Made by a program: the position numbers and the translations under genes. 64,000 bases of DNA. It comes from Candidatus Gastranaerophilales bacterium (lineage in GTDB: Bacteria; Cyanobacteriota; Vampirovibrionia; Gastranaerophilales; Gastranaerophilaceae). Below, piece after piece: positions 21,785-26,552 of this stretch. The notes beneath the pieces were generated by a model. The model worked only from the letters and a program-made list of their open reading frames with translations, had not been told where the DNA came from and did no database searches. Position 1 is the first letter of the stretch, and each line of letters begins with the position of its first letter. Location of the stretch: the NCBI GenBank assembly GCA_944323655.1, contig CALUTL010000001.1:1-64000 (forward strand), in the 5' to 3' direction.

Positions 21785-23308
21785 ATGAGTTTAGATAATC
21801 TAATAGATAGCTTTTTATCACCAATAGCCGATAAAATATCAGGGATAATTTTTTGCTCCGTAAATATTCACGGGGTTGAAGTTCAGCTGCTTGTGGCACT
21901 TTTAATGACTGCCGCAATCTATTTTACCCTAAGAACAGGTTTTATCGGAATATGGGGTTTTAAGCACGCCATAAAATTAATTACCAAAAATTACGAACAT
22001 AAAGACCTCATTAAAAGGAAAAAGAAAGGTGAAGTTTCATCTTTTCAGGCACTTACTGCCACAATCTCGGCTTCTGCAGGAATAGGAAATGTCGCAGGAT
22101 CTGCTGCTGCCGTTTCTATCGGAGGCCCGGGGGTAATTTTTTGGATGGTTGTCGCAGGTTTCTTCTCTATGGCACTGAAATTTGCAGAAGTCCTTTTAGG
22201 GCTTAAATTTAGAGAAGTTCATCCTGACGGAACCGTTGACGGCGGGCCAATGTATTATATTCAAAACGGGCTTAAAAACCACAAAATTTTCGGGAAATTT
22301 GCACCGTATTTATCTAAAATCTATGCACTTTGCTGTATCTTTGCAATGATCGGCGGATGGAATTTGTTTCAAATTAACGCTATGACAACACAGATTACGG
22401 AAGTTACGGGCGGCGATAAAAGCTTCTTTGCCGAACAAAGCTGGCTTTTGGGTTTGATTGTTGCCGTTATAACTTACTTTACTATTATCGGCGGAATTAA
22501 GGCTATCGGAAAGTTTACATCAAAAGTAACACCTGTTATGTGCAGTTTGTATGTTTTAACCGCTTTTACAATATGCCTTTTTAATATCCACCATTTTCCT
22601 CATGCAATTTCTCTTGTGATTAAAGAAGCCTTTAAACCTCAAGCACTTGCAGGCGGAATGTTTGCGTGCATGTTATGGGGATTCAGAAGGGCTATGTTTG
22701 CAAACGAATCAGGGCTTGGAACGGCTCCGATTGCGTTTTCTGCCGTAAAAACCAGCAAACCCGCAGTACAAGCCTTTATTGCTATGCTTCAGCCTTTTGT
22801 CGATACAGTAATCGTCGGAAGTGCTACGGCTTTTGTTATTGTTATTTCAGGTGCTTATCTTGATAATACCGGATTAGCGGGAATTGAACTAACCTCAAAG
22901 GCTTTCGGCTCCGTTTGTCCGTTCTTCCCGATACTTTTAACCATTATGGCAAGCTGCTTTGTGCTTTCAACCATGCTCTGCGGTTCATACTACGGAATAA
23001 AAAGCTGGAACTTCCTCTTTGGTAATTCTAAATTGAAAACACGCACTTTTCAGGTTATATATTGTTTATTCATAGTAGTTGGTTCTGCTATGAACTTTAA
23101 AAGTATCATAAATCTTTCGGATGCCTTCACTTTATTCCTTGCAGTTCCGAATTTGTTTGCGGTTTTCATACTTTCGGAGGTTGTCATGAAAGATTTGAAA
23201 CGATATTGTAAGAAATATAATGTAGGATTATTCAAAAATAACACTGATAAACAAGGAGAGAGAAAAGATGAAAGAACAATGTCTGGAGATAGTAAGACAA
23301 AAGTGTAA
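21785..23308 (+). CDS. Alanine/glycine:cation symporter (AgcS/AlsT family)
   Basis: 507 residues, polytopic. Family motifs include the TATISASAGIGNVAGSAAA region near residue 97, GGPMYYIQNGL near 155, and NESGLGTAPIAFSA near 306. The family couples uptake of alanine, glycine or glutamine to Na+ or H+; substrate cannot be fixed from sequence. It sits in the inner membrane. Its last 13 codons overlap the start of the uracil-DNA glycosylase gene in another frame, so the two are coupled. Confidence 0.93.
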   Translation: MSLDNLIDSFLSPIADKISGIIFCSVNIHGVEVQLLVALLMTAAIYFTLRTGFIGIWGFKHAIKLITKNYEHKDLIKRKKKGEVSSFQALTATISASAGIGNVAGSAAAVSIGGPGVIFWMVVAGFFSMALKFAEVLLGLKFREVHPDGTVDGGPMYYIQNGLKNHKIFGKFAPYLSKIYALCCIFAMIGGWNLFQINAMTTQITEVTGGDKSFFAEQSWLLGLIVAVITYFTIIGGIKAIGKFTSKVTPVMCSLYVLTAFTICLFNIHHFPHAISLVIKEAFKPQALAGGMFACMLWGFRRAMFANESGLGTAPIAFSAVKTSKPAVQAFIAMLQPFVDTVIVGSATAFVIVISGAYLDNTGLAGIELTSKAFGSVCPFFPILLTIMASCFVLSTMLCGSYYGIKSWNFLFGNSKLKTRTFQVIYCLFIVVGSAMNFKSIINLSDAFTLFLAVPNLFAVFILSEVVMKDLKRYCKKYNVGLFKNNTDKQGERKDERTMSGDSKTKV

Positions 23309-23924
23309 CGGATGCAAAGGCTGCGCTTTAGCTAATACTCGTAAAAACGTAGTTTTTGGCGACGGAAATGCTGACAAAGCAAAAATCGTTTTTATCGGAG
23401 AAGCACCCGGCGAAATGGAAGATGAAAGCGGAAGACCATTCTCAGGCCGCGCAGGTCAACTTTTGGATGAATTTTTGGCTGCTGCAGGAATCTCCAGAGA
23501 AGAAGATTTATATATTACAAACACCGTAAAATGCAGACCTCCGGAAAACAGAGTTCCAACTGACGAAGAAAAAGAAGCATGCCGCAAATTCTTAAATGCA
23601 CAAATTGACTTTATCAAACCGCGTGCTATTATCCTTTGTGGTGCAACTGCTTTAAAATCATTCGTAGAACTTGATAAGAAAACAACTATTTCTAAAATAA
23701 GAGGTCAGTGGATGACTATTACGGTTGATGGCGTTGAATATCCTGCTATGACAATTTTCCACCCGTCATATTTGTTAAGAAACCATTCACTTGCTGAAAA
23801 CGCACCAAGAACTCTTATGGCAAAAGATTTGAGAGAAATCAAAAACACTTACCTTAACGATGTTCAAAGATTTAATGACGTTGTTACGGGAAATGCTGAA
23901 AACAAAGAGTTCGCTTGCGTATAA
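23268..23924 (+). CDS. Uracil-DNA glycosylase, family 4 (Fe-S)
   Basis: 218 residues. It has the family-4 pattern: N-terminal cysteines CNGCKGC for the 4Fe-4S cluster, motif GEAPGEMEDESGRPFSGRAG near residue 44, the second Cys group around VKCRPPENR and EEKEAC, and the C-terminal HPSYLLRN motif. It removes uracil from DNA to begin base-excision repair. An AAGGAGAG site lies inside the end of the symporter gene. A terminator follows. Confidence 0.95.
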   Translation: MKEQCLEIVRQKCNGCKGCALANTRKNVVFGDGNADKAKIVFIGEAPGEMEDESGRPFSGRAGQLLDEFLAAAGISREEDLYITNTVKCRPPENRVPTDEEKEACRKFLNAQIDFIKPRAIILCGATALKSFVELDKKTTISKIRGQWMTITVDGVEYPAMTIFHPSYLLRNHSLAENAPRTLMAKDLREIKNTYLNDVQRFNDVVTGNAENKEFACV

Positions 23925-23945: not shown

Positions 23946-23975
23946 AAAAAGGCGGGTATTATGCCCGTCTTTTTT
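23946..23975. terminator. Bidirectional terminator between convergent genes
   Basis: AAAAAGGCGGGTA pairs with TGCCCGTCTTTTT (two wobbles) and both arms end in A or T runs, so it can serve the glycosylase gene on the plus strand and the hypothetical gene on the minus strand. Confidence 0.8.
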
Positions 23976-23998: not shown

Positions 23999-25372
23999 TT
24001 AGTCTACAATTCCGGGTTCAAGCTTAGAGCCTGTGTACCATTCCCTAAACATATATTGAACTTTAGGTAAACAATATGCAAGAAGAAAACTGCTTAATCC
24101 GACATTAGTTAAAATATTCAAAGATTTTACAAATTTAGCTTTCTTAGCAAATCTTTGAACGGCATCCAAAGGTGAAGTTCCGGCTGAAGCTCTTGCTTTT
24201 TGTGCAAATTCTTCTATGGATTTTTTAAATTTTGCGAGCTCTTTTATATCAACGTAAGCTTTAGGATCTCTAATTCCGTTTTGCTTAATTTTCGGATTTT
24301 CGTAGAGAAGTTTTACTTTTTCAAATTTTGCGGCATATTTTGTAAACAGAGCATCAGGGTTTTCGTCAATAAACTTCAAAAGAGCTTTTCCGTCGTTACC
24401 GTTTGGAAGCTTCAATGATTTATCCGCAATTTGCTGCAAAAATTCTTTATCTGCAAGCATAATAGGATCAAGTTTTACATCCAGATTGAGCGCTTTATTA
24501 GCGGCAGAATCCAGAATTTTTTCAATATATTTGGGCGCAACGTAATTTAAGAACATCATTCCAAGCATCTTGAAGCCTAAATCGACCGCCTCATTTTTCT
24601 TTCTTGATGTAACAACACGCCCGACAGCATAACCGCCGTCAATCGCTGCCATCTTTTGGTAAGTCGTAAAGTTAGCAATCGAAGATGCCATATTTCCGCC
24701 AAAAGCGACAGGAGAAGATTTGCTTAAAGACATCGACGAAAATACATCCCTTTTTAAAGTTCCAAAGGGGACATTAGCATTCTGTAAAGGATTGCTGTTG
24801 TTAAGTTGCTTCTTCTCATCACGTTCTTTTTGAGCGGCTTTGGTTTTTGCAGTAAGCCTGAATACCATTTTCGGGATTATGAAGCCCATAAAGGCTATCG
24901 GAATAATCGTTGCGGCACCGAATTTAACGGATAAAAGTTTTTCATATAAAGCTTTATTGCCCTTAACTTTTTTCAAATCCTCAAGCGATTGCTCAATTTT
25001 CTTCGCCATATTTCCGGTAATTTCGCCGTTTTTAATTCGTTCAGTAAACGATTTTGTATTATATTCCAACCCCTGACAATCCGATTCTTTAAATAGTTTT
25101 AAATTAACGTCAGGCGCAAAACCTTTTCTTTTTATTATAAATTTATTGACTAATCTTTCAACAAGCGGAATTCCTCCAAGCCACACCGCTGAAGTTGCGT
25201 ATTCATCAATAATTCGTTCTCTTGTCGCCAAAAATGCAACATCTTTGTCGTCTTTGTTTTCCTGATAAGTCAGATAAACTTTTGACGGAATCTCAACCCC
25301 GCAATCACGAAGTATAAGAGGGTAAACACTGCTGGTATTGCCTATTGCCGATATTATATTTGTTAATGACAT
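23999..25372 (-). CDS. Hypothetical membrane protein behind a His attenuator
   Basis: 457 residues, family not recognised. It is mostly helical and basic, with hydrophobic segments near residues 152-172, 270-285 and 425-445, a coiled-coil-like region near 385-400, and a Ser-rich spot with SPVAFGGN in the middle. No signal peptide; probably membrane-associated. The only weak ribosome site is TTGGAG about 13 bases before the ATG. Directly upstream (25431-25584) lies a complete histidine-type attenuator, so its expression should rise when charged His-tRNA falls. Nothing in the protein looks like a histidine biosynthesis enzyme or a known transporter. Confidence 0.7.
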   Translation of the reverse strand: MSLTNIISAIGNTSSVYPLILRDCGVEIPSKVYLTYQENKDDKDVAFLATRERIIDEYATSAVWLGGIPLVERLVNKFIIKRKGFAPDVNLKLFKESDCQGLEYNTKSFTERIKNGEITGNMAKKIEQSLEDLKKVKGNKALYEKLLSVKFGAATIIPIAFMGFIIPKMVFRLTAKTKAAQKERDEKKQLNNSNPLQNANVPFGTLKRDVFSSMSLSKSSPVAFGGNMASSIANFTTYQKMAAIDGGYAVGRVVTSRKKNEAVDLGFKMLGMMFLNYVAPKYIEKILDSAANKALNLDVKLDPIMLADKEFLQQIADKSLKLPNGNDGKALLKFIDENPDALFTKYAAKFEKVKLLYENPKIKQNGIRDPKAYVDIKELAKFKKSIEEFAQKARASAGTSPLDAVQRFAKKAKFVKSLNILTNVGLSSFLLAYCLPKVQYMFREWYTGSKLEPGIVD

Positions 25373-25430
25373 TTTATTTTCTTTTCTCCAATTCTAAACT
25401 TTTGACTTTCAAATTTAACCCGTTTGGGGC

Positions 25431-25466
25431 AAAAAATAACCTTTCACGCTTATCTCCCGAGAAAGG
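25431..25466 (-). terminator. Attenuator terminator hairpin
   Basis: On the minus strand CCTTTCTCG (25466-25458) pairs with CGTGAAAGG (25448-25440) with one T-T mismatch, followed by TTATTTTTT (25439-25431). The left arm can instead pair with the leader segment 25537-25527. Confidence 0.8.
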
Positions 25467-25512
25467 CCATTTTCTTATTTAGAATTGAATTGATTTTAAA
25501 CTTTCGCGCGCA

Positions 25513-25584
25513 CTACCAATTCACAGCCCTTCTCAGGTCGCTATGATGATGGTGATGATGAAGTTTTAAAATCTTATTTTCCAT
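25513..25584 (-). CDS. His-rich leader peptide, 23 residues
   Basis: ATG at 25584 to TAG at 25515-25513. The product begins MENKILKL, continues with six histidines and ends SDLRRAVNW. It is too short to function on its own and is best read as the sensing element of the attenuator. His codons are CAT CAT CAC CAT CAT CAT. An AAAGGG site lies 6-7 bases upstream of the ATG. Confidence 0.75.
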   Translation of the reverse strand: MENKILKLHHHHHHSDLRRAVNW

Positions 25585-25642
25585 TATTTTCCCTTTGCTA
25601 TTAATTCTATTATAAAAAAATTATTTTTCAAGCCGCATTAAA

Positions 25643-26164
25643 TTAAGACTTTACAATATTTTTTGCTTGATAAAACAGATCAATAACCGTATTATCATCC
25701 AACTTTTCTACAGCCTTAGAAACTTCTTTTTCATTGTTTTTGCCATAAAGCATCGCTCTGACAACCACATTATCAGCCATAGAAACAAGCCCTTGACGTT
25801 TTTCTTCAATCATTTCTTTTAACATTTTTTCGGCATTTTTAATATCTTCCGGCTTTATGTTAAACCAAGCTTCAAGAAGATTTCCTTTGCTCGCCTTAGC
25901 TAGAGGCTTTTCATAAGCCGTCGTGATTGACGGATTTTTAAGCATAAATGTATCACCGTCTTTACCGCGTACAAGATAAAGCTCCGAACTGTCCATTCCT
26001 GAAGCTCTTAACCTTTCGTACTGCTGAACGTATGAAGGCATATATTTATTTAATTTCTGATCATAAATTTCTTTACAGATTTCACTTGAAACTTTTCCGT
26101 TGATTTTTATGCCGAAATTCAAATTATTTTTTGAATTGCTTTGGGTAACTGTATTGACTTGCAT
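25643..26164 (-). CDS. Hypothetical protein with NFGIK N-terminal motif
   Basis: 173 residues, soluble, helical, no signal peptide. The first 25 residues are Asn/Ser/Gln-rich and end in NLNFGIKING, matching the short motif seen in neighbouring families. The rest (about 30-173) has charged helices and no recognised domain. It precedes the attenuator on the same strand and follows a related-looking gene by 19 bases, so these two are probably co-transcribed. Function unknown. Confidence 0.62.
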   Translation of the reverse strand: MQVNTVTQSNSKNNLNFGIKINGKVSSEICKEIYDQKLNKYMPSYVQQYERLRASGMDSSELYLVRGKDGDTFMLKNPSITTAYEKPLAKASKGNLLEAWFNIKPEDIKNAEKMLKEMIEEKRQGLVSMADNVVVRAMLYGKNNEKEVSKAVEKLDDNTVIDLFYQAKNIVKS

Positions 26165-26183: not shown

Positions 26184-26552
26184 TTAATTGTCTATCAGAC
26201 AAATTGTATCATAAAGTAATTTCTCGCTTTTTCTTATTAAGCTTTCCGTTAATACATCAAATGCACCGCAGACACTTTCGCCATAAGTCATTGATACAAA
26301 AACTCTTTGTGACATTTTGGGATTTCTTATCGTTATATAATTTAATGCCTCCGACGGAGAATACTTGGTGTCAATAATACTATCCGGCTTCCCCCACCTT
26401 TCCACTTTCGATATTTTATATTCTAAGCGGTCAAGACCATCTTTATTTTTTGCCAATACTTCCGACTTTAATACTTTTCTTAATTCCGGTGACAATTTTA
26501 CACCAAACGCTGTCGAATTGTAATTATTTGCATCTACTGCAGAAATCTTCAT
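26184..26552 (-). CDS. Hypothetical protein with AFGVK N-terminal motif
   Basis: 122 residues, soluble. It starts MKISAVDANNYNSTAFGVKL, that is, a polar leader with the recurring Phe-Gly-x-Lys motif at about residues 16-19. The middle contains a YSPSEALNYITIRNPKM-type segment; the C-terminus is helical. The family is not recognised. An AAAGGA ribosome site is present. It is probably in an operon with the NFGIK gene downstream. Confidence 0.62.
   Translation of the reverse strand: MKISAVDANNYNSTAFGVKLSPELRKVLKSEVLAKNKDGLDRLEYKISKVERWGKPDSIIDTKYSPSEALNYITIRNPKMSQRVFVSMTYGESVCGAFDVLTESLIRKSEKLLYDTICLIDN

Follow-up and report, generated by a model that had tools for sequence, protein, structure and literature searches.

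In the genome of a Gastranaerophilales bacterium, a gene that encodes a 457-residue protein lies behind a short reading frame carrying a run of six histidine codons. This locus raises the question of whether histidine supply controls the gene and, if so, what a protein under such control would do for its host. We analysed a 64,000-nucleotide stretch from this genome (hereafter, the window) together with related genomes. The parts of the locus are arranged as follows, with the attenuator itself spanning 25631-25386 on the minus strand.

25604-25631, minus strand: sigma-70-type promoter, TTGAAA (25631-25626), 16 nt, TAGAAT (25609-25604); read in the sequence
25591-25596, minus strand: ribosome-binding site of the leader peptide, AAAGGG; read in the sequence
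25513-25584, minus strand: leader peptide reading frame, MENKILKLHHHHHHSDLRRAVNW followed by a stop codon, 23 codons, with six consecutive CAY histidine codons at 25560-25543; read in the sequence
25517-25537, minus strand: segment 2, CCTGAGAAGGGCTGT followed by GAATTG, pairing with segment 3 and CAATTC; from covariation and from the duplex compared with shuffles
25478-25489, minus strand: anti-Shine-Dalgarno, TTCAATTCTAAA, including the CAATTC captured by segment 2; from pairing at register and both-side changes
25456-25470, minus strand: segment 3, ATGGCCTTTCTCGGG, common to antiterminator and terminator; from covariation of both helices
25436-25447, minus strand: segment 4, GTGAAAGGTTAT, 3' arm of the terminator; from covariation and staged folds
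25431-25436, minus strand: U-run of the terminator, missing in many relatives; read in the sequence
25386-25398, minus strand: Shine-Dalgarno region of the gene, TTTAGAATTGGAG, sequesterable by 25489-25478; from pairing and folding
23999-25372, minus strand: regulated gene, the only one downstream, for a 457-residue helical membrane-type protein with zero histidine; from composition, structural model and hydropathy
23946-23974: hairpin terminator between the convergent gene at 23268-23924 and the regulated gene, closing the transcription unit; read in the sequence

Anatomy and conservation of the leader

The 23-residue leader peptide with its six histidine codons and its ribosome site, described in the initial annotation, can be read directly in the sequence, and so can the alternative terminator with a T-rich tail, in which 25470-25456 pairs with 25447-25436 ahead of the U-run at 25436-25431. 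The antiterminator had been given as about 10 pairs between 25537-25527 and 25466-25456; the pairing holds but its extent does not, as 25537-25523 forms 15 pairs with 25470-25456, plus an inner helix of GAATTG (25522-25517) with CAATTC. In addition, the leader contains a complement of the Shine-Dalgarno (SD) region of the gene (25489-25478 with 25398-25387). For the -10 element, TATAAT at 25614-25609 was considered and rejected because its spacing to TTGAAA would be just 11 nt, and TAGAAT at 25609-25604 was taken instead. By eye, TTGAAA and a TA-rich -10 element at 16-17 nt are also found 5' of the gene in several relatives from the genus. The run of six CAY codons is the sole one in the 1.95 Mb genome.

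Leaders were examined for 121 orthologs of the downstream protein, down to about 42% identity, with six order-level homologs as outgroup. A His-rich leader precedes all 121 orthologs, the best short upstream reading frame encoding 3-7 histidines with at least three within 8 residues, compared with 0-1 histidine and no His-rich leader for the six outgroup homologs. This conservation excludes a chance run of histidine codons. Codons for Tyr, Asn, Thr, Leu or Gln frequently break up the run, while the RNA pairing is kept.

We then looked for covariation in both hairpins, as had been proposed as a check, and found it to be strong in an alignment of 64 leaders. More specifically, the helix of segments 2 and 3 (2:3, the ON state) consists of 87.9% standard pairs, compared with 34-58% when the strands are slid, and has 135 cells with compensatory changes on both sides against 41 (sd 9) in shuffles. 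The corresponding values for the helix of segments 3 and 4 (3:4, the OFF state) are 86.4% standard pairs against 42-62% slid, and 98 both-side changes against 29 (sd 8). Because segment 3 is common to both helices, they are mutually exclusive. Of 83 leaders, 75 have a 2:3 duplex that is better than 95% of shuffles and 43 an anti-SD:SD pairing that is; 53 contain a terminator-like hairpin with U-run. Over the same 83 leaders, the anti-SD:SD pairing shows 85% standard pairs at register against 23-53% slid, with 6 pairs changed on both sides; by eye, lineages with a differing SD have a differing complement too (ATTCTCC:GGAGAAT in L045, CTCCTTT:AAAGGAG in L156). Computation thus establishes the RNA anatomy and its conservation, and, given this conservation and covariation, the attenuator is confirmed as real and chance is out of the question.

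Searched against 59 genomes from the order and the class, a covariance model of the leader matched exactly once in each of 23, in every case at the gene of the histidine-free protein; no match was found elsewhere in these genomes or in genomes without the gene. The model missed one genome (G022), whose leader, MFTPSVKRHHHNHHHCH, represents another architecture. A scan for other leader peptides in 462 kb of the source genome recovered just this one and a reading frame resembling ribosomal protein L36. Judging from these searches, other histidine genes do not seem to be under the control of this switch.

Proposed switching and its relation to known systems

The leader folds at -43.5 kcal/mol, compared with -29.6 for shuffles (z -3.95). 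In staged folding of the transcript up to the U-run, the 2:3 antiterminator is the minimum (-34.6 kcal/mol) with a ribosome held at the second histidine codon, and the 3:4 terminator forms with no ribosome or with a ribosome at the stop codon. The equilibrium fold of the full-length leader favours the OFF state even when the leader is covered at the histidine codons; the ON state must therefore arise while the RNA is still being transcribed, which is the accepted view of classical attenuators. The gain in SD accessibility is modest on average (0.43 against 0.32, seen in 52 of 77 leaders).

From the RNA anatomy we infer the following switching. With ample histidine, the ribosome would reach the stop codon of the leader and cover segment 2, leaving segment 3 to pair with segment 4, which here makes a terminator; the anti-Shine-Dalgarno would pair with the ribosome site of the gene, and expression would be off at two levels. 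With scarce histidine, the ribosome would wait on the histidine codons, and segment 2 would capture segment 3 along with the CAATTC of the anti-Shine-Dalgarno; transcription would then continue and the ribosome site of the gene would be freed. A product without histidine would still be makeable during the shortage, and in hosts that are histidine auxotrophs it would most likely help to acquire, release or spare histidine. We are confident, though short of certain, that the locus is a ribosome-dependent histidine attenuator and turns on the synthesis of one protein during a shortage of charged His-tRNA, this protein having a probable role in histidine acquisition, release or sparing. That histidine supply controls the downstream gene, at first put forward as conjecture, is strongly supported by the conserved histidine codons, the two covarying alternative helices and the single gene target.

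The locus has the parts of a ribosome-mediated histidine attenuator, namely a leader of histidine codons, exclusive covarying helices and a terminator with U-run, and it shares with enterobacterial hisL (Rfam RF00514, His_leader) the run of histidine codons, the exclusive hairpins, the terminator with U-run and the order of parts. The RF00514 model aligns over its full length to the leader at 18.8 bits (E 0.59), below the gathering threshold of 49; the leader works like His_leader and is not a member of that Rfam family. Unlike hisL, it precedes one uncharacterised gene instead of the his operon, in a genome without HisD and HisB, and it adds sequestration of the ribosome site of the gene, while the U-run is missing in many relatives. 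The leader has no Rfam match to a T-box riboswitch, and decoding here proceeds via the leader reading frame. In Firmicutes, His-leader attenuators of his and hisXYZ genes arose independently, some control a transporter, and histidine auxotrophs with a regulated transporter occur (PMC9413887); those attenuators act on biosynthesis or ABC transporter genes that are already known, whereas the gene here belongs to no known family. Sequestration of the SD is decided by a stalled ribosome in translational attenuators such as ermB (PMC8274638) and by tRNA in the SD-sequestering T-boxes of Actinobacteria (PMC1262725); in contrast, the signal here is the histidine codons of the leader reading frame, combined with a transcription terminator.

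The presence of both a terminator and an anti-Shine-Dalgarno invites the alternative that the leader controls translation only, stalling on the histidine codons serving to free the ribosome site and the terminator being secondary here. In its favour, 30 of the 83 leaders lack a hairpin with U-run at threshold and most of these keep 2:3 and 3:4, and the anti-SD:SD pairing covaries, including in L045 and L156 with their different SD. Yet the terminator of the window itself is strong and followed by a U-run, 53 of the 83 leaders keep a terminator-like hairpin, and the anti-SD beats 95% of shuffles in just 43, and we find this alternative somewhat unlikely. We read the whole as two-level control in which the terminator has been lost or weakened in some lineages; for relatives without the U-run, the sequences point to translational control. 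A different signal altogether, a metal such as Zn or Ni sensed by the histidine run of the nascent peptide in place of charged tRNA, would draw on the general property of His6-like peptides of binding metals, but the frequent interruption of the run by other codons under unchanged RNA pairing, along with a product that is free of histidine and tracks histidine auxotrophy, makes it very improbable.

The His-leader attenuator is a device of a known kind. New are its lineage, its target, the two-level arrangement in which transcription and translation control are exchanged, the way the target has shed almost all histidine, and the complementary distribution of target and histidine biosynthesis. 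No published report on histidine control in Gastranaerophilales was found in the literature covered, which omits most subscription journals. The related leaders form a series in which transcriptional attenuation and sequestration of the ribosome site trade places.

A protein nearly devoid of histidine

The initial annotation had named as the target a single gene for an uncharacterised membrane-type protein, and this holds: the next, convergent gene lies across the terminator at 23946-23974. Searches of Pfam (E up to 0.1), NCBIfam (E up to 1), PHROGs, PADLOC and PDB sequences assign the 457-residue protein to no family, and Pfam and NCBIfam give no match to a known histidine biosynthesis or transport family; 28 homologs have only scattered, weak family matches. 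An AlphaFold model built with 14 sequences (pLDDT 76, pTM 0.70) is nearly all helical and has no convincing match in PDB and viral fold searches. Hydropathy indicates two to four possible, weakly hydrophobic membrane segments, the clearest at residues 153-171 and 417-435, and so few segments speak against a classical permease.

What sets the protein apart is its composition. Histidine is absent from 94 of the 121 orthologs (mean length 433 residues) and occurs once in 18 and twice in 9. Its frequency is 0.07% in the orthologs, while 18 paralogs have 1.17% and the reading frames of the window 1.48%, and every residue other than histidine lies within 0.45 log2 of the paralogs. Among 140 reading frames of at least 350 residues in 462 kb sampled from the genome, this is the sole histidine-free one. 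We attribute the near-total loss to selection against histidine in a protein that is made under histidine starvation. A low content of the cognate amino acid in biosynthetic enzymes has a published precedent (PMC4209129), and the principle is the same, that proteins needed during starvation are poor in that amino acid; the present protein differs in not being a known biosynthetic enzyme, in a depletion that is nearly total and in hosts that are auxotrophs, and is an exceptionally clear example of depletion in the cognate amino acid. The suggestion that the protein could be His-rich or bind metal through histidine is contradicted by the absence of histidine from it and from most orthologs.

The opposite-strand neighbours, an Na:alanine symporter (PF01235, 21785-23308, plus strand) and a uracil-DNA glycosylase (PF03167, 23268-23924, plus strand), recur beside the gene in genera g1, g7 and g11, though not in g10. 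As the neighbourhood varies among genera, context does not name the function of the protein. Separately, two uncharacterised neighbours (25643-26164 and 26184-26552, both minus strand) have short N-terminal motifs of the NFG/AFG type (NNLNFGIKING, NSTAFGVKLS), and an SFxG motif occurs inside the histidine-free protein family; together, these may be a lineage-specific sorting motif.

Histidine auxotrophy and the role of the protein

Of 288 genomes from the same family, 161 have an ortholog. The source genome lacks HisD (PF00815), as do all 14 searched genomes of its genus, and HisB is absent from the source genome as well. Across the 288 genomes, computation shows a marked auxotrophy pattern: 156 have the protein only, 76 HisD only, 5 both and 51 neither (Fisher P 8e-29, genomes not being independent). 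In each of the 34 genomes tested for HisB (PF00475), among them the five holders of both the protein and HisD, the result matches that for HisD. Within single genera, the protein and HisD are counted 8 and 10 times in g21 with no genome having both, 1 and 16 times in g57, and 10 and 7 times in g6 with three having both. Because the protein tree follows genera, the genomes cannot be counted as independent; the P-values come out too small and overstate the evidence.

Since TrpC and ArgG are also rarer in genomes with the protein, general pathway loss was considered as a confounder. Rows for ArgG weaker than E 1e-40, which mostly cover the N-terminal 70 positions, were not counted as ArgG. The HisD pattern persists after removal of genomes with TrpC or ArgG (252 genomes lacking both: 155 with the protein only, 43 HisD only, 5 both, 49 neither; P 2e-17), and general loss as the sole cause was rejected. 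Horizontal spread of the protein was rejected as well, because the tree follows genera; for the same reason, we read the protein's exclusion with HisD as the outcome of differential loss. An ancestor that had both the protein and HisD is suggested by the tree together with the five double holders, the differential loss having come later. One double holder, G197 (L103), a species of genus g54, carries HisD at G197:C10:29542-30756 with E 5e-181, a much stronger score than in the rest of the family; this HisD may be a regained pathway, and the leader of G197 has just three histidine codons.

The distribution gives support to both the histidine carrier and the starvation response suggested in the initial annotation, the protein being found almost only in genomes without histidine biosynthesis. 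The locus would so be a histidine-starvation module of histidine auxotrophs. A protein that is switched on without charged His-tRNA, needs no histidine and is kept by organisms that do not make it is most simply read as one that obtains or spares histidine. We give about an even chance to a role, broadly understood, in acquiring or salvaging histidine, and slightly less than that to the protein being the founder of a new acquisition or salvage class, non-homologous to known transporters and standing in for biosynthesis, with histidine purged so that it can be made when needed.

Narrower readings are less probable. That the protein is an uptake component for histidine or His-peptides replacing biosynthesis is suggested by its near-exclusion with HisD and HisB, and in auxotrophs among Firmicutes and Actinobacteria a transporter, hisXYZ or YuiF, is indeed regulated by histidine (PMC9413887). 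However, the protein has just two to four weakly hydrophobic helices, no transporter family and no convincing fold match, and the 51 genomes with neither the protein nor HisD show that it is not required for auxotrophy, so that we hold uptake only as a tentative candidate. The protein could instead be a starvation-response factor whose action, in growth arrest, proteolysis, translation or membrane stress, would save or release histidine without importing it. Low histidine suits a protein made under starvation, and other family members have a different, regulatory-looking leader peptide (ending in NLIWGL), which suggests a response to translation-linked signals; on the other hand, no known domain is present and absence from most histidine prototrophs suggests a histidine-specific benefit, which leaves this reading somewhat unlikely. 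Should the protein prove to be a device for histidine acquisition, it would explain how these auxotrophs live. Regulatory RNA, amino acid make-up and phyletic complementarity together provide a functional lead, both strong and testable, for an unannotated family in a gut lineage dominated by uncultured members.

The paralogs offer some further observations. A third, longer paralog of about 530-550 residues (G000:C7:8571-10031, L172) has counterparts in two relatives (L064, L065) that lack the leader seen before other paralogs and order-level homologs (L046 at G000:C4:111000-114500, L047-L063, L026-L031). There, a conserved leader ends in R-L-M-N-L-x-W-G-L-stop, for example MTLRLRRKSIITKANAPKLRLMNLIWGL followed by a stop codon. 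These leaders are not His-rich; they show synonymous codon changes, and in many a GCCCC..GGGGC hairpin lies over the leader end. From these sequences, they are possibly arrest leaders or leaders that stall at the stop codon.
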